Both the position numbers and the translations under genes were made by a program. 36,874 nucleotides of DNA, from assembly GCA_016869045.1 (NCBI GenBank), contig VGFC01000020.1, forward strand, positions 1 through 36,874. The letters are read 5' to 3'. Under the pieces are notes generated by a model. The model saw only the letters and a program-made list of their open reading frames with translations, made no database searches and was not told the DNA's origin. Positions 11,733 to 22,038 of this stretch are shown one piece after another (positions within the stretch are counted from its first letter, which is position 1; every line of letters begins with the position of its first letter). The stretch is from Armatimonadota bacterium. GTDB taxonomy: Bacteria; Armatimonadota; Zipacnadia; Zipacnadales; VGFC01.

Positions 11733-11786
11733 GGGGACAGTCCATGCGTCCTGATCCCGCAACGGGATCAGGACTTGGACAGTCCC
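11733..11786. repeat. Inverted repeat family E, copy 1 (dnaG-rpoD spacer)
   Basis: Outer arms GGGGACAGTCCA and TGGACAGTCCC enclose an inner stem GTCCTGATCCCG / CGGGATCAGGAC with a 3-base loop. A second 54-base copy lies at 14580-14633 with the same outer arms and a compensated, different inner stem. Both copies are preceded by GAAGGCAA. A spurious ATG (11744) of a longer rpoD frame lies inside it. Confidence 0.9.
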
Positions 11787-11809
11787 AAGACGGAAGGAGC
11801 GGAGCGAGC

Positions 11810-13921
11810 GTGACGGAGGGACAGGCATCCAGCCTGCAGGAGCTGAAGGAGGTCCGCGTGCTCATTGCCAAGGGCAAGCGGACGGGCGTCCTCACGCTCC
11901 AGGACATCCAGGATGCCCTGAGTGAGGTCGAGACGCTGGACGCCGAGGCGGCGGACGAGCTGTACCGCCTGCTCGCCGAGGCCGGCATCCAGGTGAGCGA
12001 GGGTGGGGAAGAGGAAGAGGAGGAGGAGGAGACGGCCGCGGAGGAGGCAGAGCCGGCGGTTGAGGTGGAGGAGCTGGACGAGCAGGACCTCGCCGACCTG
12101 GACGGGATTCCGATCGACGACTCCGTGCGGATGTACTTGCGCGGAATCGGCCGCTTCCCGCTGCTGACGCCTCGCCAGGAAGTGGTCCTGGCCCGCCGCA
12201 TCCAGAAGGGCGACGGCGAAGTCATCTACGACAAGCTGCGGAACGCCCTCATGTTCCGGCCCTTCGAGCGGCTGGAGCATGACGTGGTCTACACGGTTGC
12301 GGTGCGCGGCGGGGAGAGCGGCCTTCGCGACCTCACCGGCCGCCGCATGGCGGGAGACTCCCAGTGGACCTTCTGCACCGTGCGCGCCGGCTCGCCGCTG
12401 GGCATCTTGCGCACCATCCCCGAGGATGGCGCCCGCACCGTGGATGTGGCGAACGGCATCTTGATCGACTTCAACGACTCCATCGCCCCCTCGGCCCGCC
12501 GCGTCCGGCCGATCGTGCTCAGCGACCAGAAGGGGCGGGCGGTATCCGGGACGCTCACGCTCGACGACCGCCCCGGGCGGGTGCGTTTCACGCCCCACGA
12601 GCCGCTGCGCTACCGGACGACCTACAAGGTCACCGTGAAGGGCGGCCGGGACGGGATCCGCAGCGAGGACGGCCGCCTGCTGCCGGCCGACGCGAGTTTC
12701 GAGTTCGTGACCGCCGCCACCCGCGCGGGCCCCAAGCCCAGCGCGATGTGGCCCGAGAACGGGGCCGAGAGCGTCCCGGCGGCCATGGCCGCGGCCGTCA
12801 GCTTCTCCAAGCCCCTCGACCCCAAGAGCGTCAACACGCAGACCGTCTCCCTCGTTGGCGGGGGGGACGTCGAGGTCGCGGGCTCGGCGGAGTACGTGCC
12901 CGAGGCCAACGAGATCCGCTTCATCCCGGATACGGCGCTGCAGTTCGGCCACTCCTACACGCTCACGGTTCGGGGCCGTCAACGTGGCATCCGGGACATC
13001 GACGGGTTGCCGATGGTGCGCGCCGTGAAGGTGCAGTTCCGCACCGAGGAGACCCCGGGGGAGCCGGCGGCCTTCCCGGTCTACCCGCAGGCCGAAGCGG
13101 AGGGCGTGGGGACGGGTGCGCTGATCGAGGTGGGCTTCACCCGGCAGATGGACCTCGCCACCCAGACGCCCGAGGCCCTCAAGGTCAAGGACGAGGAGGC
13201 CATCCGCAAGCTGGCCGAGGCGAACCTGCGCCTCGTGGTGAGCATCGCGAAGAAGTACACCGGCCGCTGCTCCATGAGCTTCCTGGACCTCATCCAGGAA
13301 GGCAACATGGGACTGATGCGCGCCGTCGAGAAGTTCGACTTCCGCAAGGGCTACAAGTTCAGCACATACGCCACGTGGTGGGTGCGGCAGGCCATCACGC
13401 GCGCCATCGCCGATCAGGGCCGGATCATCCGCATCCCGGTCCACATGGTCGAGACGATCAACCGGTTGGTGAAGACCTCCCGGCAGCTCCTCCAGCAGCT
13501 CGGCCGCGAGCCGACGCTGGAAGAGGTCGCTGCCGACATGGACATGCCGCTGGAGCGGGTGAGCGAGATTCGGCGCATCGCCCCGGAGCCGCTCTCGCTG
13601 GAAGCCCCCGTCGGCGAGGAGGAGAACAGCCACCTGGGGGACTTCGTCCCCGACGAGGAGGTCCGCTCGCCGGTCGATGCGGCGAGCAACCTCGTGCTGA
13701 GAGAGCAACTGGAGCAGCTCCTGGGCCAGCTCAACCCGCGCGAGCGCGAAGTGCTGAAGCTGCGCTTCGGCCTCGACGACGGCTACCCGCGGACGCTCGA
13801 GGAAGTCGGCCAGCAGTTCAGCGTTACCCGCGAGCGAATCCGCCAGATCGAAGCCAAAGCGCTCAAGAAGCTCCGACACCCGGCCCGCAGCCGGCCACTG
13901 CTGGACTACTTGGGGAGCTGA
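11810..13921 (+). CDS. rpoD: Primary sigma factor RpoD/SigA with a large Ig-like (Big_5-type) insertion
   Basis: A 703-residue RNA polymerase sigma factor. GTG 11810 follows AAGGAG by 10 bases; the in-frame ATG at 11744 lies in a repeat. Region 1.1 (about 10-65) is followed by an acidic linker (about 66-105) and region 1.2 ([18 protein letters not shown] to RIQKGD, ending at 135). Residues 136-461 are foreign to sigma factors: three Ig-like repeats with [40 protein letters not shown] and [20 protein letters not shown] as repeated edges, P-x-NGA and F-x-PLD motifs. From 462 the canonical core resumes: [20 protein letters not shown] (2.1), [16 protein letters not shown] (2.3-2.4), region 3, and the 4.2 helix-turn-helix ([18 protein letters not shown]). 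Removing 12215-13192 would restore a normal SigA. All core regions are intact, so it should be functional. Confidence 0.93.
12215..13192 (+). other. In-frame Ig-like (SbsA/Big_5-type) insertion within rpoD
   Basis: This 978-base segment (326 codons) separates RIQKGD from EEAIRKL. It starts in mid-repeat ([16 protein letters not shown]), contains two whole repeats and ends in mid-repeat ([19 protein letters not shown]), just where the next GxVxYD strand would begin. The total is therefore about three repeat lengths, circularly permuted. Both junctions share AAGG-x-GAC-like bases (AAGGGCGAC left, AAGGAC right). Base composition is like the rest of the gene. Confidence 0.85.
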
Positions 13922-13976: not shown

Positions 13977-14234
13977 GTGAAGGCGATTCGCTCCGCAAAC
14001 GGCCGGAACGCGGGCGTGCGCGTCACGTTGGACGCCGTGACCGCGGCACAGATCGACCGGCTGGCCGAGCGTGAAGGGGTCAGCCGCGCTGGCCTGGTGC
14101 GCCGGGCACTCCAGGACTGGATGCGGGACGAAGCCGAGGACGAGGCGCTCGCCCGCGAAGCCAAACGCAGACTGCAGGACCCCAACGAACCGCGTATCCC
14201 GTGGGAACAGGTGAAACGGGAGTTGGGGCTGTGA
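13977..14234 (+). CDS. Ribbon-helix-helix (CopG/RelB-like) antitoxin
   Basis: An 85-residue protein starting at GTG 13977, 6 bases after GGAGG. The N-terminus has a beta strand (GVRVTLDA) followed by two helices (AQIDRLAEREGVSRAGLVRR), the ribbon-helix-helix DNA-binding fold. The acidic C-terminal half (MRDEAEDEALAREAK, then a PWEQVKRELGL tail) is typical of the toxin-neutralising region. Its stop overlaps the RelE-type toxin start as GTGA. It should bind and silence the toxin and repress its own operon. GGAGGGCGAC lies in the short gap after rpoD. Confidence 0.88.
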   Translation: MKAIRSANGRNAGVRVTLDAVTAAQIDRLAEREGVSRAGLVRRALQDWMRDEAEDEALAREAKRRLQDPNEPRIPWEQVKRELGL

Positions 14235-14491
14235 CCTACAGGGTTGAGTTCACTGGTTCAGCGACCAAGGAGCTCGCCAACGCTCACCCTGAAGTGAGGG
14301 CCGCGATCGCCCGACGGATTGATGCGTTGGCACGGGAGCCGCGCCCGAGAGGAGCCGTACCGCTGCGCGGCGACCTGAAGGGGCTCTGGCGGCTGCGAGT
14401 GGGTGACTACCGGGTGATGTACGCGATCGACGACGTCGCCCGGGTCGTGACCATCGCGGCGGTAGGCCCTCGCGGAAGCGTCTACAGCTGA
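14231..14491 (+). CDS. RelE/ParE-superfamily toxin
   Basis: An 86-residue protein; GTG 14231 overlaps the antitoxin stop by 4 bases, which decides the start. It shows the type II toxin pattern: YRVEFTGSATKELAN, a helix with IARRIDALAREPRP, PLRGDLKGLWRLRVGDYRVM and a C-terminal strand VVTIAAVGPRGSVY. RelE members cleave mRNA on the ribosome, ParE members poison gyrase. The GLWRLRVGDYRVMYAID segment matches the RelE-type core and carries conserved basic residues (R399-like numbering is not assigned). No His/Tyr catalytic test is possible here, but the pair is complete and likely active. Confidence 0.9.
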   Translation: MTYRVEFTGSATKELANAHPEVRAAIARRIDALAREPRPRGAVPLRGDLKGLWRLRVGDYRVMYAIDDVARVVTIAAVGPRGSVYS

Positions 14492-14579: not shown

Positions 14580-14633
14580 GGGGACAGTCCATGCGTCACG
14601 ATCCCGGTTCGGGATCGTGGCTTGGACAGTCCC
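14580..14633. repeat. Inverted repeat family E, copy 2
   Basis: Same outer arms as 11733-11786 (GGGGACAGTCCATGCG and TTGGACAGTCCC), with inner stem ACGATCCCG / CGGGATCGT around a 3-base loop. Inner bases differ from copy 1 on both sides so that pairing is kept. Confidence 0.9.
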
Positions 14634-14638
14634 GACTT

Positions 14639-14715
14639 GGGCCCGTAGCTCAGTCGGTTAGAGCAACCGGCTCATAACCGGTTGGTCGCTGGTTCGAGTC
14701 CAGCCGGGCCCACCA
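14639..14715 (+). tRNA. tRNA with CAT anticodon (tRNA-Met elongator or tRNA-Ile2)
   Basis: Acceptor GGGCCCG (14639-14645) pairs with CGGGCCC (14705-14711); discriminator A14712 and encoded CCA (14713-14715) follow. The anticodon loop CTCATAA has CAT in the centre. The T arm has GGTTCGAGTCC. A fully paired first acceptor pair rules out initiator tRNA. Elongator Met and lysidine-modified Ile2 cannot be told apart with certainty by eye. Confidence 0.93.
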
Positions 14716-14862: not shown

Positions 14863-17800
14863 ATGCTCGGCCCGATCACCGAGTTCGTCAAGCGGTACCG
14901 GCACGAGGTCAGCAAGCATGCTCTGGCTGTCGGCAGCGGCATGATCGTGCCGCCGTACGCCAGGAGCCCCTACGACGTCATCGGCGAGGTCGCGATCCGC
15001 GAGGCCGGGGAGAGAGCGGGTCGTCGCTCGGCCGACGGACGCCTGGAGGATGCGGTCGCGCGGTGGGCGGCGCAGCAGCCCGACCACGCCGTCCGCAGTC
15101 GTCTTGTCGCCGAGGCCCTGGCCAGTGCGCGGCCCTCCGAGGGGCACATCCGCCTCGCCCGGATGGTCAAGGACGGGTACTTCAGCACCCTGATCTGGGG
15201 TGCGCCCGATACGCTGCTCGAGCAGGCCTTGCAGCAGCAGCGCCTCGAGCCCGAGCGCGACTTCAACCTCCTCACCGTCGGCATTGCCGAGCCCGAGGAA
15301 GTCCGGGTGGCGATCGAGGAGTCCACGCGGATCACCGTCATCAAGACCGGCGGCGACCTCCCGCACGAGTTCCTCCCGCTCACGGCCGCCGAGCTGCGCG
15401 CAACCCTCGCCCCCGTGGCGAAGGTGCTTACCGACGCCCTGCGCCCGCTATTGATCTTCGTCGCCTACTCTCCGCGCGACAGCGAACTCCTCGCCCTCGT
15501 ACCTCCCGACGGCGACCGCATGTTCTGGGTGAACCGCATCGTGCCGGTCGAGAGCCGAGAGCGCTACGACGAGCTGCGCGTGGAGGCGCCGGCCGCCGCG
15601 CGCTTCCATTCCTATGAGCCGACGGTGACGGCCCTTCTGGCACGGCGGGGTTCGGCCAAGAACCTGCTGTGCCGCGAGGCCGGCACCTTCGACGAGTTCT
15701 TCGGCAAGCTGCACCATCGGCTGCAGCGTCGGAAGGGCAGCCATGGAGAGGGCCGCAAGGACCTGACGGTCCTCCCTGGCGGGCCGTACCGCTATCTCGA
15801 TTACCTCGACGTGCGCCACGGGGACCTCTTCTTCGGGCGCGAGGAAGAGACGCAGGAACTCAAGAGGCTCATCGCCGACAGCCCCTTCTCGGTGCTGTGC
15901 GGCCCGGACGGCATCGGCAAGTCGTCGCTCCTGCGGGCCGGGGTCGCGGCGGCGATGGTAGCGGAGGAGAAGGAGAGCGATCAGCGCCCCGCGCTCATCC
16001 CCGTGGTGGTGACCTGCGTCGGCGATCCTGCGGACGACACGCGGCGCGCGGTGGAGGCCACGCTGCGGGACCGCGGGTGGCTGACTGGCTCCCACCTGAA
16101 TGCCGAGAGCTTCACCGAGGCGATGACGGAAGCGGTCGAGGCCGCGCAGACGGGCCTGGCCGTCCTGGTGGACGGCTTCGAGCACTGCATCGCGCGTCGC
16201 GGGCCGGCGACCCGCCGGGGCTTCGCCCAGGTGACGGCGGCCTGTGCCGAGCGTCTGGGCGACCGCTGGCGGATGTGCCTGGCTCTCCGCGAGGAGTTCC
16301 TCGCGTACTTGCTTGATCTGCGGACCTACTGGCCGAGCTTGTTCACCTCGGTCTTCCGCCTGGGTCGCCTGCCGCAGAGCGATGCCGTCGATGCGATCAT
16401 GAAGCCCGGTCCCGCGTTCTACTGCTACCCGGAGACGGAGCTTGCCGAGCGCGTGGCCGCCGATCTGGACGACAGGGGCGTCTTGCCCGCCCACGTCCAG
16501 ATCATCATGAACCGGCTCTACGAGCAGCGCAGTTGGGGCGCCTCCTCCATCACGCTGAAGATGTACGAGCACGTCGGCGGCGCGGAGAAGATCCTCGAGG
16601 AGTGCATCGACTTCCCGCTGTCTCAACTCGGCCAGCGCGACCGACGCCTCGCGCGCACGATCCTCAACCGCCTGGTGGGCTCGCAGCACACCACGGTGCC
16701 CAAGTCGCTCGAACGGATCGTGGAGGAGACCCGGCTCGACCGCGAACGCACCGAACGCGTGCTCGCGCGCCTCGTGGACCTGCGCATGGTCCGCGCCGTC
16801 GGCCCCGAGGGCGCTCGGCAGTACCGGCTGATCCACCCTTACTTGGCCGAGCGACTGAGCGCGGAGCTATCGGAGCGCGTCCTGGCGGCGGCGAAGCACG
16901 CCGACTCCGTCGCCCGCGCGACCGACGAGTGGCTGCACACCGGGGCGCTGGTTCCGGCGCGGCTGCTGCGGCGACTGCGCGAGTGTCGGGACTCGATGTG
17001 GTTCGCGCCGCAGGAGCTGGAGAGCCTGTTGCGGGCGGCGGCGATCCACGAGATCGACCTGGAGTACTGGCTGCGGCGGACCGGCGCCGCCGGCGCTGAG
17101 CGCATCCCCGTACTGCGGAGGCTGCTGCACGACACGGACGAGCGCGTGCGGCGCGCCGCCGCCGAGGGGCTCGGCCAGGCCGCGGACGAGGACGCGCTCT
17201 CTACGCTGGTCGATGGGCTGCACGACCGCGACGACACCGTTCGCGAGCGCGCGACCCTGGCGCTAGAATCCCACGAGCGCGCCCTCACGGAGTCGCTGAC
17301 CACCGACGAGCCGACCAAGCGGCAGCGCGCTGCCCATGCGCTGGGAATCATCGGGCGCGAGAAGCACGTGGGTCCGCTGGTGGGGGCGCTGCGGGACGAT
17401 GACGACGAGTTCACCGATCAGGCCACGCGCGCTCTCTCTCAGGTCGGCCCGCACCGCGCGGAGAACCTCCTGCTCCAGCGCCTCATCGACGAGCCCGAGG
17501 CCCCCTGGAGCGTCGCCTACGCGCTCGGACACTTGGGTACGGACGTGCGGACTCTCGGCGCGTTGGAGCAAGCCCGCGGCCGCGCGCGCGCCGGCGCGCT
17601 GCCGAAGTTCGACTACGCGATCGGCCGCGCCCGTCTGACCCGGGGTGAGCTGACCGAGGCGCAGACGGCGCTGGAGGCCGCCATGTCCGCGGTCCGCGAC
17701 GCCGGCGGCCGCACCGCCATCGAGAGCGCGCTGGCGGAGCTGGCGGAGACGCGAGAGCGGGCCTCCGACAGCGACCCCGTGGACTGGCCCATGTTCGGCG

Positions 17801-18843
17801 GCGGCCCGACGCGTCGAGCCTTCCGCCGTCGGCAGCTCAAGCTCCCCCTGAACCGTCGTTGGGCCTTCTCCACCGAGGACGAGGTCGTGGCCTCGCCCGT
17901 GGTGGCGAGCGGCATGGCCTACATCGGATCACGCGACCGAGGGTTCTACTGCGTGGACGTCGGCGCCGGCACGCTCAACTGGCGCCTGACGGCCAAGGAC
18001 CGCGTCGAGTCCACCGCCGCCGTCGCCGACGGCCGGGTCGTCTTCGGCTCCATCGACGGGACGCTCTACTGCGCCGACGCCGCAGGCGGCACGCGGCGCT
18101 GGACGCGCAGTGTTGGCGGGCCGATCCGCGCCTCCCTGGCCATCGCAGGCGGCCTCGTGTTCGCCGCAACCCGGAGTGGGGCCCTCGCGGCCCTGTCGCT
18201 CGAGGACGGCGACCCCGTCTGGCGCAAGCAGTACGAGGGCGACATCGTCGCCGCGCCTGCGATCCGCCGCGACGCCCTCGTGTTCGGGGCGTGGGACCAG
18301 CTGATCCGTTGTCTCAACCGCGACACGGGCGAGGAGAAGTGGCGCTTCGACTCGCGCGGCGAGGTCTCCGGCGCGCCGGCCATCGCGGGGGACCGAGTGT
18401 ACTGCCCTTCCGATGCCGGCCTTCTGTGCGCCCTCGACCTGGAGACGGGGGAGGAGGTCTGGCGCGCCTACCTGGAGCCGCCGGTTCGCTGCTCACCCGC
18501 CGTCACCGACGAAGTGGTGATCGCCGGCGACGGCTCGGGCCGCGTGGTGTCGCTGTCGGTGGAGACCGGTGGGGAGAACTGGACCGTCGAACTGGGCGAC
18601 GAAGCAAGCGGCTCGCCCGCCGTGGCCGGCGACCACGTGCTGGTCGGTTCGGTGGACGGCTCCCTGCGCGCTCTCAGCGTGGCAACCGGCGAGGAGCGCT
18701 GGCGCGAGAAGACCGCCTTCGGCATCTACTCCTCACCTGCCATCGCCGGTGAGACCGTGCTAGTGGCGATGGGCTACTACGACCTGTGGGCCTTCGGCCA
18801 TGAACCCGAGCCGATGGCTCCCGGAGCGGATGTGGGACTGTGA
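14863..18843 (+). CDS. SIR2-like / STAND NTPase / HEAT / PQQ-propeller protein
   Basis: A 1326-residue multidomain protein; ATG 14863 follows AAGGA. Residues about 1-290 have a SIR2-like layout (SGMIVPP, STLIWGAPDTLLEQAL, ITVIKTGGDL, LLIFVAYSPRDSELL), but the usual TTNYD, KLHGD and GYS motifs are altered, so NAD hydrolysis is doubtful. Residues about 325-560 are a STAND NTPase: FFGREEE, Walker A GPDGIGKSS (347-355), Walker B LAVLVDG (Asp near 437). A winged-helix region follows (about 600-670), then HEAT-like repeats (about 745-900), a helical stretch, and an eight-bladed-type PQQ-like propeller (about 973-1310) with repeated DxxTGEExW motifs. There is no signal peptide. STAND proteins are signal-sensing switches, and SIR2-STAND fusions (Avs5-like) act in phage defence. 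The next gene starts on its stop codon. Confidence 0.87.
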   Translation: MLGPITEFVKRYRHEVSKHALAVGSGMIVPPYARSPYDVIGEVAIREAGERAGRRSADGRLEDAVARWAAQQPDHAVRSRLVAEALASARPSEGHIRLARMVKDGYFSTLIWGAPDTLLEQALQQQRLEPERDFNLLTVGIAEPEEVRVAIEESTRITVIKTGGDLPHEFLPLTAAELRATLAPVAKVLTDALRPLLIFVAYSPRDSELLALVPPDGDRMFWVNRIVPVESRERYDELRVEAPAAARFHSYEPTVTALLARRGSAKNLLCREAGTFDEFFGKLHHRLQRRKGSHGEGRKDLTVLPGGPYRYLDYLDVRHGDLFFGREEETQELKRLIADSPFSVLCGPDGIGKSSLLRAGVAAAMVAEEKESDQRPALIPVVVTCVGDPADDTRRAVEATLRDRGWLTGSHLNAESFTEAMTEAVEAAQTGLAVLVDGFEHCIARRGPATRRGFAQVTAACAERLGDRWRMCLALREEFLAYLLDLRTYWPSLFTSVFRLGRLPQSDAVDAIMKPGPAFYCYPETELAERVAADLDDRGVLPAHVQIIMNRLYEQRSWGASSITLKMYEHVGGAEKILEECIDFPLSQLGQRDRRLARTILNRLVGSQHTTVPKSLERIVEETRLDRERTERVLARLVDLRMVRAVGPEGARQYRLIHPYLAERLSAELSERVLAAAKHADSVARATDEWLHTGALVPARLLRRLRECRDSMWFAPQELESLLRAAAIHEIDLEYWLRRTGAAGAERIPVLRRLLHDTDERVRRAAAEGLGQAADEDALSTLVDGLHDRDDTVRERATLALESHERALTESLTTDEPTKRQRAAHALGIIGREKHVGPLVGALRDDDDEFTDQATRALSQVGPHRAENLLLQRLIDEPEAPWSVAYALGHLGTDVRTLGALEQARGRARAGALPKFDYAIGRARLTRGELTEAQTALEAAMSAVRDAGGRTAIESALAELAETRERASDSDPVDWPMFGGGPTRRAFRRRQLKLPLNRRWAFSTEDEVVASPVVASGMAYIGSRDRGFYCVDVGAGTLNWRLTAKDRVESTAAVADGRVVFGSIDGTLYCADAAGGTRRWTRSVGGPIRASLAIAGGLVFAATRSGALAALSLEDGDPVWRKQYEGDIVAAPAIRRDALVFGAWDQLIRCLNRDTGEEKWRFDSRGEVSGAPAIAGDRVYCPSDAGLLCALDLETGEEVWRAYLEPPVRCSPAVTDEVVIAGDGSGRVVSLSVETGGENWTVELGDEASGSPAVAGDHVLVGSVDGSLRALSVATGEERWREKTAFGIYSSPAIAGETVLVAMGYYDLWAFGHEPEPMAPGADVGL

Positions 18844-19643
18844 GAAGCGTCGCTGCGTTTGCGTGCGCCGTCGCCGTGGCGCTTCTCGGAGGCTGCAGCG
18901 TCGTCCACGACATGCGGTCCGAGTACGTGGCGAACCGCGCCCTGCGCGACGCCACCGATGAGCTACTGAGCAGCCGGCCCCACCTCGACCGCGCTCGCGC
19001 GCACCTCGACCTCGCGTTCCGCCTGCGCCGTGACGACCCCCGGTTCGTGGCGCGCCTCGCCGAGGCCTACCAGACCGCCGGCGGCTTCGAGCGGGCCGTC
19101 GAGTGCTACGAGACCGAGACGAAGCTCACCGGGAAGACGCGCGATCTGCAGATCGGCTACTGCCTGCTGAAGCTCGGCAAGGCCGGGGCCGGCACGAAGC
19201 GCCTCGAGCGCGCGCTCGAGCAGGCTGCGGCCGATTACGCCGACGGCGACATCGGCTCCGCCGAGTACGCCGTAGCGCTCAACGACGCTGGCTACGCCTT
19301 CGTGGACGCGAACCTCCGGGTGGACGAGGCCCTCAAGCTGATCGAGGAGGCCGTGCGGCTCGATCCGCTGCAGCCGGCCTTCATCGACAGCCTCGGCTGG
19401 GCCTACTACCGGCAGGGCAAGTACGAGGACGCGGCCTTCCAACTCGAGCGCGCCGCGCGCCTTCTGGGCCGCCGCGATGCCGAAATCCTCTGGCACCTCG
19501 GCGCTGTGCACGCGCAGGCGGGGAAGCTGCGCCGCGCCGAGAGCGAGTTGAGGGAGGCGCTGGCCCTCGATCCCGCGAACTCCGAAGCCCGGCGCACGCT
19601 CCGCGACATGCTCCGCGAGCTGCCGCCACCGACAATGGCATGA
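18840..19643 (+). CDS. TPR lipoprotein
   Basis: A 267-residue protein whose GTG start (18840) overlaps the STAND gene stop as GTGA, indicating coupled translation. The N-terminus has a lipoprotein signal with lipobox LLGGC (Cys19). TPR-like repeats occupy about 50-255; FIDSLGWAYYRQGKYEDAAF, EILWHLGAVHAQAGKLRRAE and LALDPANSEARRTL are near-canonical units. It should be anchored on the outer face of the cytoplasmic membrane or in the outer membrane. Its coupling to a cytoplasmic STAND protein is unusual and suggests either envelope sensing or only shared transcription. Confidence 0.87.
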   Translation: MRSVAAFACAVAVALLGGCSVVHDMRSEYVANRALRDATDELLSSRPHLDRARAHLDLAFRLRRDDPRFVARLAEAYQTAGGFERAVECYETETKLTGKTRDLQIGYCLLKLGKAGAGTKRLERALEQAAADYADGDIGSAEYAVALNDAGYAFVDANLRVDEALKLIEEAVRLDPLQPAFIDSLGWAYYRQGKYEDAAFQLERAARLLGRRDAEILWHLGAVHAQAGKLRRAESELREALALDPANSEARRTLRDMLRELPPPTMA

Positions 19644-19668: not shown

Positions 19669-20856
19669 GTGAAGCTATCTGACCGTGTTGCCCGCATGAA
19701 GCCCTCGGCGACGATGGCGATGGACGCGAAAGCCAAGGATATGGTCGCTCAGGGCAAGGACGTCCTCTCCTTCGCCCTCGGCGAACCGGACTTCCCGACC
19801 CCCGAGCCCATCTGTGAAGCCGGCATCCAGGCCATCCGCAAGGGGCACACGAAGTACACGCCCGCCTCGGGCACCGCGCGCCTGAAGAGCGCCATCTGCA
19901 CCGCGACGGAGCGCGACCTGGGCCTGGCGGTGAAGCCCGCCCAAGTCTGCGTGGGCAACGGGGCCAAGCACATCATCGCGAGCATCTTCGGCTCGCTGCT
20001 CGACCCCGGCGACCACGTCATCCTGATCGCCCCCTACTGGGTCAGCTACGCCGACCTCGTGGAGCTGTTCGACGGTACGTGGACTGCCGTGCAGGCCCCG
20101 GCGGAGCGGGACTTCGTGCCCGACATGGCCGCCGTCGAGGCCGCCGTCACCGACCGCACCGTCGCCGTGCTCATCAACAGCCCCAGCAACCCCAGCGGCG
20201 GCGTCTTCGAGCGCTCCGACATCGAGGCCCTGGCCGAGGTCGCCGTCCGCAAGGACCTCACGATCATCAGCGACGAGATCTACAAGCACATCCTCTTCGA
20301 CGGGCGCACCCACTACAGCCCGGCGATGGTCTCCGACGAGGTCCGGCAGCGCACGATCATCGTGGACGGCGTCTCGAAGACCTACTCGATGACCGGCTGG
20401 CGCATCGGCTGGCTGATCGCGCCCGAGGCCTTCACGAAGGGCGTCGGCACGCTGCAGAGCCAGATGACCTCCAACCCGAACTCCATCGCGCAGGAGGCCG
20501 CCGCCGATGCCCTCCTCGGCCCGCAGGACGCGGTCGAGGTGATGCGCGCGGAGTTCGAGCAGCGCCGCGACCTCATCGTGGGCCTGCTCAACGGAATCGA
20601 CGGGATCACCTGCCGCACGCCCGGCGGCGCGTTCTATGCGTTCCCGGACGTGAGTTCGTACTTCGGCAAGACGCGGCGGGGTCGCACGCTTGAGACGGCA
20701 ACCGACGTGTCGGCGTACCTGCTCGACGAGGCCCTGGTCAGCACCGTGCCCGGCGAGGCCTTCGGCGTCGCGGACAACATCCGCCTCAGCTTCGCGTGTT
20801 CGAACGAGCAGATCACGGAAGGCTGCGCGCGCATCGCGGAAGCCCTCGCCGGGTAG
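19669..20856 (+). CDS. aspC: PLP-dependent aminotransferase, class I/II (aspartate aminotransferase type)
   Basis: A 395-residue fold-type I aminotransferase. GTG 19669 follows GGGAG by 9 bases. Family motifs: GEPDFPTP near the N-terminus, GNGAKH (cofactor phosphate region), LINSPSNPSGG, ISDEIYKHI, the PLP-binding lysine in VSKTYSMTGWRIGW (K237), and a C-terminal NIRLSFACS with the substrate-carboxylate arginine. It matches the Ib subgroup of aspartate or aspartate/prephenate aminotransferases, feeding oxaloacetate/glutamate exchange next to TCA-cycle genes. The exact amino donor is not certain. Its stop codon TAG forms the first bases of the repeat at 20854. Confidence 0.92.
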   Translation: MKLSDRVARMKPSATMAMDAKAKDMVAQGKDVLSFALGEPDFPTPEPICEAGIQAIRKGHTKYTPASGTARLKSAICTATERDLGLAVKPAQVCVGNGAKHIIASIFGSLLDPGDHVILIAPYWVSYADLVELFDGTWTAVQAPAERDFVPDMAAVEAAVTDRTVAVLINSPSNPSGGVFERSDIEALAEVAVRKDLTIISDEIYKHILFDGRTHYSPAMVSDEVRQRTIIVDGVSKTYSMTGWRIGWLIAPEAFTKGVGTLQSQMTSNPNSIAQEAAADALLGPQDAVEVMRAEFEQRRDLIVGLLNGIDGITCRTPGGAFYAFPDVSSYFGKTRRGRTLETATDVSAYLLDEALVSTVPGEAFGVADNIRLSFACSNEQITEGCARIAEALAG

Positions 20857-20940
20857 GGGCACAGCGCGCGGCGCCCGCCGTTGGGCGGCTCACGAGCCGC
20901 CCCTACTCAGCACTTCGCACTCAGCACTTCGCACTGCCCT
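20854..20940. repeat. TAGGGGC...GCCCCTA element with tandem-word tail
   Basis: TAGGGGC (20854-20860) and GCCCCTA (20899-20905) are complementary; the right half contains the hairpin GCGGCT/AGCCGC. A tail of two CAGCACTTCGCACT words follows (20908-20936). It fills the spacer between the aminotransferase and isocitrate dehydrogenase genes. Confidence 0.75.
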
Positions 20941-20949
20941 GGAGGTCTC

Positions 20950-22038
20950 ATGCCCCACACAGTAACCCTCATCCCCGGTGACGGCACCGGGCCCGAAGTA
21001 GCCGCCGCCGCACGGCAGTGTGTCGAGGCGACCGGCGTGGACATCGAATGGGAGGTCGCGCACGCCGGGCTCGACGTGATGGCCGACCATGGGACGCCCT
21101 TGCCTCAGGCGGTGCTGACGTCGATCCGCAAGAACCGCGTCGCCTTGAAGGGGCCGATCACGACGCCGGTGGGTACGGGCTTCCGGTCGGTGAATGTGTC
21201 GCTGAGGAAGATGCTGGACCTGTACGCCTGCGTGCGGCCGTCGCGCTACTACGAGGGCGCGCGCAGCCGTTACCCCGAAGCCGACCTCGTCATCATCCGC
21301 GAGAACACGGAGGACCTCTACGCGGGGATCGAGTTCGGCGTCGGCACCTCCGACTGTGACGAGCTGATCGAGGAGATCGAGGAGCTGAGCGGCCAGACGA
21401 TCGCGCCCGACTCGGCCATCTCGATCAAGCCGATCTCGATTGCCGCCAGCCAACGAATCGTGCGTTTCGCCTTCGAGTACGCCCTCGCGAACGGGCGCCG
21501 CAAAGTGACCGCGGTCCACAAGGCCAACATCATGAAGGAGACCGACGGCCTCTTCCTCGCGACGGCGAGGCGCGTGGCCGAGGAGGAGTACGCGGACAGC
21601 GGGATCGAGTTCGAGGACCGCATCGTGGACAACATGTGCATGCAGCTCGTGCAGAAGCCCGAGTTGTATGACGTGCTGGTGCTGCCGAACCTCTACGGAG
21701 ACATCGTGAGCGACCTCGCGTGCGGCCTCATTGGCGGCTTGGGTGTGGCGCCGGGGGCGAACATCGGGGAGGAGTGCGCGGTCTTCGAGCCGACGCACGG
21801 CAGCGCGCCCCGGTATGCGGGGCAGAACAAGGTGAACCCGACCGCAACGATCCTCTCGGGAGTGATGATGCTGCGGCACCTCGGAGAGACGGAGGCTGCC
21901 GACCGCCTGGACGCCGCCGTTGCACAGGTCATCGCGGAGGGCCGCGACGTGACCTACGATATGAAGCCCCAGCGCGACGATCCGACCGCCGTGGGGACTT
22001 CGGAGATGGCGGACGCGATTTGCCGCGCGCTTGGGTAG
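20950..22038 (+). CDS. icd: NAD-type isocitrate dehydrogenase
   Basis: A 362-residue member of the isocitrate/isopropylmalate dehydrogenase family, catalysing oxidative decarboxylation of isocitrate to 2-oxoglutarate. GGAGG lies just before ATG 20950. Visible motifs: [11 protein letters not shown] at the N-terminus, [18 protein letters not shown] (isocitrate phosphate-loop and arginines), [15 protein letters not shown], the catalytic lysine in AVHKANIMK, and [19 protein letters not shown] with metal-binding aspartates. The SxNVxLRK motif favours isocitrate over isopropylmalate. NAD rather than NADP use is inferred from similarity to the short IDH3-like group. The last 110 bases overlap a convergent gene. 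Confidence 0.9.

Follow-up and report, generated by a model that had tools for sequence, protein, structure and literature searches.

A single-copy, syntenic SIR2-STAND protein with a predicted inactive sirtuin domain across a class of Armatimonadota

The window analysed here is a stretch of 36,874 nucleotides (positions 1 to 36,874 of contig VGFC01000020.1, assembly GCA_016869045.1) from an Armatimonadota bacterium. It encodes a STAND protein in which a sirtuin-fold N-terminal domain, an nSTAND1 NTPase, HEAT repeats and a PQQ-type beta-propeller are joined in one chain (Table 1). An earlier note on this DNA, made from the letters, had described a 1326-residue chain with HEAT-like repeats and a PQQ-type propeller, and the Pfam matches agree with that description. 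The chain is read as cytosolic, since it shows neither a clear membrane span nor a clear signal peptide. No account of this STAND family turned up in literature searches.

The STAND gene is followed by a gene for a membrane-anchored TPR protein. The lipoprotein start that the same note placed on the STAND stop codon is a GTG, and the two genes overlap by 4 bases; by this start-stop overlap the TPR protein is the predicted translationally coupled partner of the STAND protein. A TPR ortholog adjoins the STAND gene in nearly the whole order and in families f7 and f8, and most of these orthologs have an N-terminal hydrophobic anchor, often with a lipobox. Assignment of the TPR protein as PilW/Tgl was rejected, the score being 60 bits against an NCBIfam PilW cut-off of 154, with generic TPR matches only. 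An apparent STAND-TPR fusion of 1597 aa in one relative (L054) was likewise discarded as an assembly artefact, caused by a frame slip at an N, with the normal propeller end present in another frame.

Table 1. Features at and around the STAND gene, in window coordinates.
Feature	Position	Strand	Evidence or remark
RpoD-type sigma factor	11744-13921	+	
Big_5 insert in RpoD	12206-13195	+	between regions 1.2 and 2
RHH antitoxin + ParE/RelE toxin pair	13977-14491		between rpoD and tRNA-Met; Pfam
Near-perfect hairpin	14580-14633		just before tRNA-Met
tRNA-Met (CAT)	14639..14715	+	conserved neighbour upstream of STAND
STAND ORF	14863-18843	+	ATG at 14863, TGA at 18841-18843; 1326 aa
Pseudo-SIR2 N-domain, residues 1-295	14863..15747	+	AlphaFold, Foldseek, motif table
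TTNxD position, residues 112-116, here WGAPD	15196..15210	+	catalytic Asn absent, 37/37 orthologs
KxHGD position, residues 161-165, here KTGGD	15343..15357	+	His absent 37/37; Lys161, Gly164 invariant
nSTAND1 NTPase module, residues 308-700	15784..16962	+	Pfam PF20703, 1.4e-42 (residues 308-663)
HEAT repeats, ~residues 723-903	17029..17571	+	PF13646 (HEAT_2), 1.1e-20; alphaRep matches in PDB
PQQ-type beta-propeller, ~residues 997-1305	17851..18777	+	PF13360 (PQQ_2), 1.9e-62; PDB matches designed PQQ propellers, BamB
Membrane-anchored TPR protein, 267 aa	18840..19643	+	GTG start; lipoprotein signal LGGC; TPR Pfam matches
Aspartate aminotransferase	19669..20856	+	conserved downstream neighbour
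Isocitrate/homoisocitrate-type dehydrogenase	20881..22038	+	conserved downstream neighbour

The upstream flank holds features of its own. The RpoD-type sigma factor carries an insert of ~330 aa made of bacterial Ig-like (Big_5) domains, at the place where other primary sigma factors have a non-conserved region. Big_5 was present in all 11 RpoD members scanned across the class, with a constant insert length in 10 of them, and the AlphaFold model of the insert is nearly all-beta (pLDDT 90.6) and matches Ig-like pairs of LdtMt2 and of S-layer proteins; a literature search found no report of such an insert in RpoD. The hairpin before the tRNA reads GGGGACAGTCC...GGACAGTCCC. It was rejected as a dispersed repeat, since a search of the genome allowing up to 3 mismatches found no second copy. 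GGGACAGTCC also occurs directly before rpoD at 11734.

The nature of the N-terminal domain was approached by structure prediction. An alignment of 37 ortholog N-domains served as input for an AlphaFold model of residues 1-305, which reached a mean pLDDT of 91.5, and the 50 best Foldseek matches of this model in the PDB are all sirtuins of the SIR2_2 kind. The best match is the SIR2 protein of SPARSA (1.7e-8, TM 0.61), and further PDB matches include DSR2, ThsA, KomC and the filament structure of EfAvs5. At the level of sequence, the PADLOC SIR2-pAgo (SIR2-Argonaute) models match residues 72-211 of the window protein at 7e-9. Pfam gave no SIR2 match on the window protein, SIR2_2 (PF13289) included; one ortholog (L094) reaches 19.6 bits against SIR2_2, under the cut-off of 24.5. 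A PDB search with the N-domain sequence returned marginal ThsA and SPARSA matches only, so that the fold claim depends on the predicted model. The model supports a sirtuin fold that groups with the defence sirtuins, and thereby the SIR2-like N-terminus for which the earlier note had proposed a structural comparison as the check.

The residues that make sirtuins of this kind NADases are missing. Where TTNxD has its catalytic Asn, the 37 orthologs have Glu, Asp, Ser, Gly, Cys, Ala or Thr and never Asn; the His of the HG pair is replaced by Gly, Ala, Leu, Cys or Pro and is never His; and the GAGxS motif, GSGMI in the window protein, has likewise lost its Ser in the motif table of the same orthologs. 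The altered motifs reported earlier are real: the window protein reads WGAPD where TTNYD would stand, KTGGD at KLHGD and GSGMI at GAGxS. Five residues of the domain (G24, K161, G164, W222 and H249) are invariant in 37/37 orthologs. Sister families retain more of the old signature near the motif sites in the alignment, for example TIFTTSIDGLLE and KLLGD in L094 and STTLDDLL and KLLGD in L093, a pattern that fits one ancient loss with later drift. As an internal control, the window genome encodes L002, a SIR2_2 protein whose motifs are intact (TTNYD and KVHG).

Experiments on related proteins indicate which of these losses weighs most. Avs5 depends on the Asn of TTNxD, the N110A mutant being dead, whereas about half of the homologs have NG for HG and one such NG protein was still able to hydrolyse NAD (PMC12931631); Avs5 thus needs the Asn but tolerates a natural Asn in place of the His, which makes the loss of the Asn the telling one. 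The matching Asn and His are needed in FAM118 proteins too (PMC12700824). By residue loss, the NADase is predicted to be disabled in every lineage of the class, and the suggestion that this is a STAND switch without NADase residues holds on the ortholog sequences.

The NTPase, by contrast with the sirtuin-like domain, keeps most of its signature. Walker A (GPDGIGKSS, residues 347-355) is intact, as had been noted; G352, K353 and Asp437 are invariant in the alignment of 40 orthologs, and Arg476 and Arg499 nearly so. The Walker B motif, also described as intact, is so only in part: Asp437 is kept, but the second acidic position is His441 in the window protein alone, where 38/40 orthologs have Glu. 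Between close species, dN/dS is 0.06-0.18 for the SIR2-like domain, 0.05-0.24 for the NTPase and 0.05-0.31 for the propeller, so that the C-terminal sensor gives no indication of positive selection. Purifying selection is strong on all domains, and on the dead sirtuin it is as strong as on the NTPase. Pairwise distances correlate among the four domains, the TPR partner and the flanking enzymes (r 0.70-0.93), as expected for vertical descent.

The distribution of the gene was surveyed in 291 genomes of the phylum, relatives from metagenome assemblies included. Every one of the 46 genomes of the class carries the STAND gene once, as do all 41 genomes of the genus and order, where some copies are split by contig ends. 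Synteny in the order runs dnaG - rpoD - tRNA-Met - STAND - TPR - aspartate aminotransferase - isocitrate-type dehydrogenase, with malate dehydrogenase and fumarase after the dehydrogenase at some loci, and the sister family f8 retains it from dnaG to the aminotransferase. In all 21 order loci scanned, the STAND gene is preceded by the tRNA-Met at a distance of a few hundred bases, and L094 has this tRNA upstream as well. In families f9 and f10, two tandem mreC(-like) genes directly follow the STAND gene (L095, L096, L097); these are the only three genomes of the class with mreC beside it, the other members having a single mreC elsewhere. In the window, the segment 19669-25360, right after the STAND-TPR pair, holds the aspartate aminotransferase, the isocitrate/homoisocitrate-type dehydrogenase, malate dehydrogenase and two fumarase subunits.

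It is important to point out what these data mean for the idea of an accessory gene in a defence island, as the earlier note had supposed. A tRNA and a toxin-antitoxin pair are indeed adjacent, but the pair has no counterpart in the other syntenic loci and is a private insertion, the only local accessory item, while the tRNA belongs to the ancestral synteny. No defence genes were recognised around the STAND gene, and phage or plasmid carriage was rejected: no relative was found in viral contigs, and plasmid matches are restricted to the generic STAND part. The universal and syntenic housekeeping position that the note itself had named as speaking against its reading is the position found, throughout the class for universality and across the order for fixed synteny. 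An accessory island is thereby ruled out for the class, and we assign this reading next to no probability.

The search was widened beyond the phylum in one scan of genome contigs with a single query, which gave one close relative, L024 from an Armatimonadetes MAG, and one propeller match in Chloroflexi. Outside the class, STAND-HEAT-propeller homologs occur in five genomes of the neighbouring class (G253-G257; families f39 and f40). The complete ones are colinear over STAND, HEAT and propeller, with equal domain lengths and 25-35% identity, but their N-domain is unrelated to the pseudo-sirtuin and is HD-like by eye, a weak assignment; at L100 and L101 the neighbour is a cold-shock-domain protein. 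The comparison suggests that the STAND-HEAT-propeller chassis has swapped its N-terminal module. The window genome also encodes a second nSTAND1-HEAT protein (L111, 3814-7149 of G000:C337) with a weak match of its N-domain to Pfam HD-CE (0.0012); HD-CE scores only on this STAND protein of the window genome and not on the f39/f40 homologs.

Among known systems, Avs5 (SIR2-STAND, AVAST type 5) has the same plan of an N-terminal SIR2_2-type sirtuin fold, a central STAND NTPase and a C-terminal sensor. Unlike the window family, which has lost both motifs, Avs5 keeps GAGxS and TTNxD and hydrolyses NAD (PMC12931631); the window family differs further in its HEAT and PQQ-propeller sensor, its nSTAND1 NTPase and its status as a core syntenic gene, and the PADLOC Avs5 model gave no match at E <= 0.1. 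SIR2-APAZ/SPARSA, ThsA (Thoeris), DSR2 and KomC share the sirtuin fold, but the window family has no Argonaute/APAZ or other recognition parts and has lost the Asn and His. The nSTAND1 conflict-system proteins of multicellular bacteria resemble it in combining nSTAND1 with an effector-like N-domain and C-terminal repeats. Their distribution is typically patchy, however, whereas the window family is universal in the class and single copy. The vertebrate SIR2_2 proteins FAM118A/B are another case in which a stable gene of the host retains a sirtuin fold of the defence type (PMC12700824), although FAM118 retains the active Asn and His, can process NAD and has no STAND part.

On balance, it is somewhat probable that the protein is a vertically inherited, class-wide core component: an NTP switch of the STAND type, located in the cytosol, whose N-terminal sirtuin is catalytically dead. 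Its role is probably in the everyday life of the cell and not in defence against phages. In such a switch, the HEAT/propeller C-terminus would sense an internal, non-phage ligand or protein whose binding releases the NTPase, NTP exchange in the nSTAND1 domain would drive assembly, and the dead sirtuin would act as an assembly surface, an adaptor or docking site, or a ligand-binding output module without destroying NAD. A role in assembly is plausible in view of the filaments that sirtuin domains form in ThsA, Avs5 and FAM118 (PMC12700824). The switch probably serves growth or the upkeep of the envelope, because the genes coupled to it encode either a TPR protein with a membrane anchor or, in the sister families f9 and f10, MreC. 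We infer the envelope link from gene order in three genomes and the TPR anchor; the anchor lies across the membrane from the cytosolic STAND protein, which counts against it, and since metabolic genes, those of TCA-cycle enzymes, flank the STAND gene in the order as well, adjacency may mean genome stability only.

Conservation and a dead effector are also compatible with an immune role, and the gene could be a domesticated guard: an anti-phage STAND sensor, fixed in the class, whose dead sirtuin recruits another effector. The combination of effector-like domain, STAND module and C-terminal repeats is that of Avs-type sensors, and the nearest folds, like the PADLOC SIR2-pAgo matches, all point to defence sirtuins. 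Such a guard is nevertheless unlikely, given a single copy in every genome of the class, fixed housekeeping neighbours with no defence genes recognised nearby, a propeller without positive selection and an effector dead in all lineages. Slightly less credit is given to a redox or NAD sensor, in which the dead sirtuin would bind NAD(H) or ADP-ribose uncleaved and couple the NAD state to the STAND module, with the TCA neighbours in its regulon. The invariance of G24 in the nucleotide-binding loop, of K161 and of G164 argues for it, as do the aminotransferase, dehydrogenases and fumarase downstream, but the Ser of GAGxS is lost, as is the Asn, which helps to hold the NAD pocket together, and the gene order differs in f9 and f10. 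That the domain is still an active NADase, using other residues in a divergent site as do Avs5 proteins with NG for HG, appears improbable: the NG protein does retain activity, but the Asn essential in Avs5 (PMC12931631) is replaced in all 37 orthologs, and a core NADase in a whole class would need tight control.

Tentatively, the everyday-switch reading can be extended into a history, in which a STAND protein of the immune type would have turned into a switch for everyday use that the whole class cannot do without. NAD cleavage by its sirtuin would have been lost ahead of the diversification of the class, and today the protein may sense the NAD state or form a signalling assembly in control of envelope growth or central metabolism.

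Sirtuin-domain STAND proteins have been studied as switches that kill infected cells. A universal, single-copy, syntenic SIR2-STAND protein with its killing chemistry disabled would be a bacterial counterpart of immune receptors repurposed for housekeeping. It is also a warning that a SIR2-STAND architecture alone is insufficient to call a defence gene, and the family offers a direct test of the role that a dead sirtuin may play within a STAND machine.
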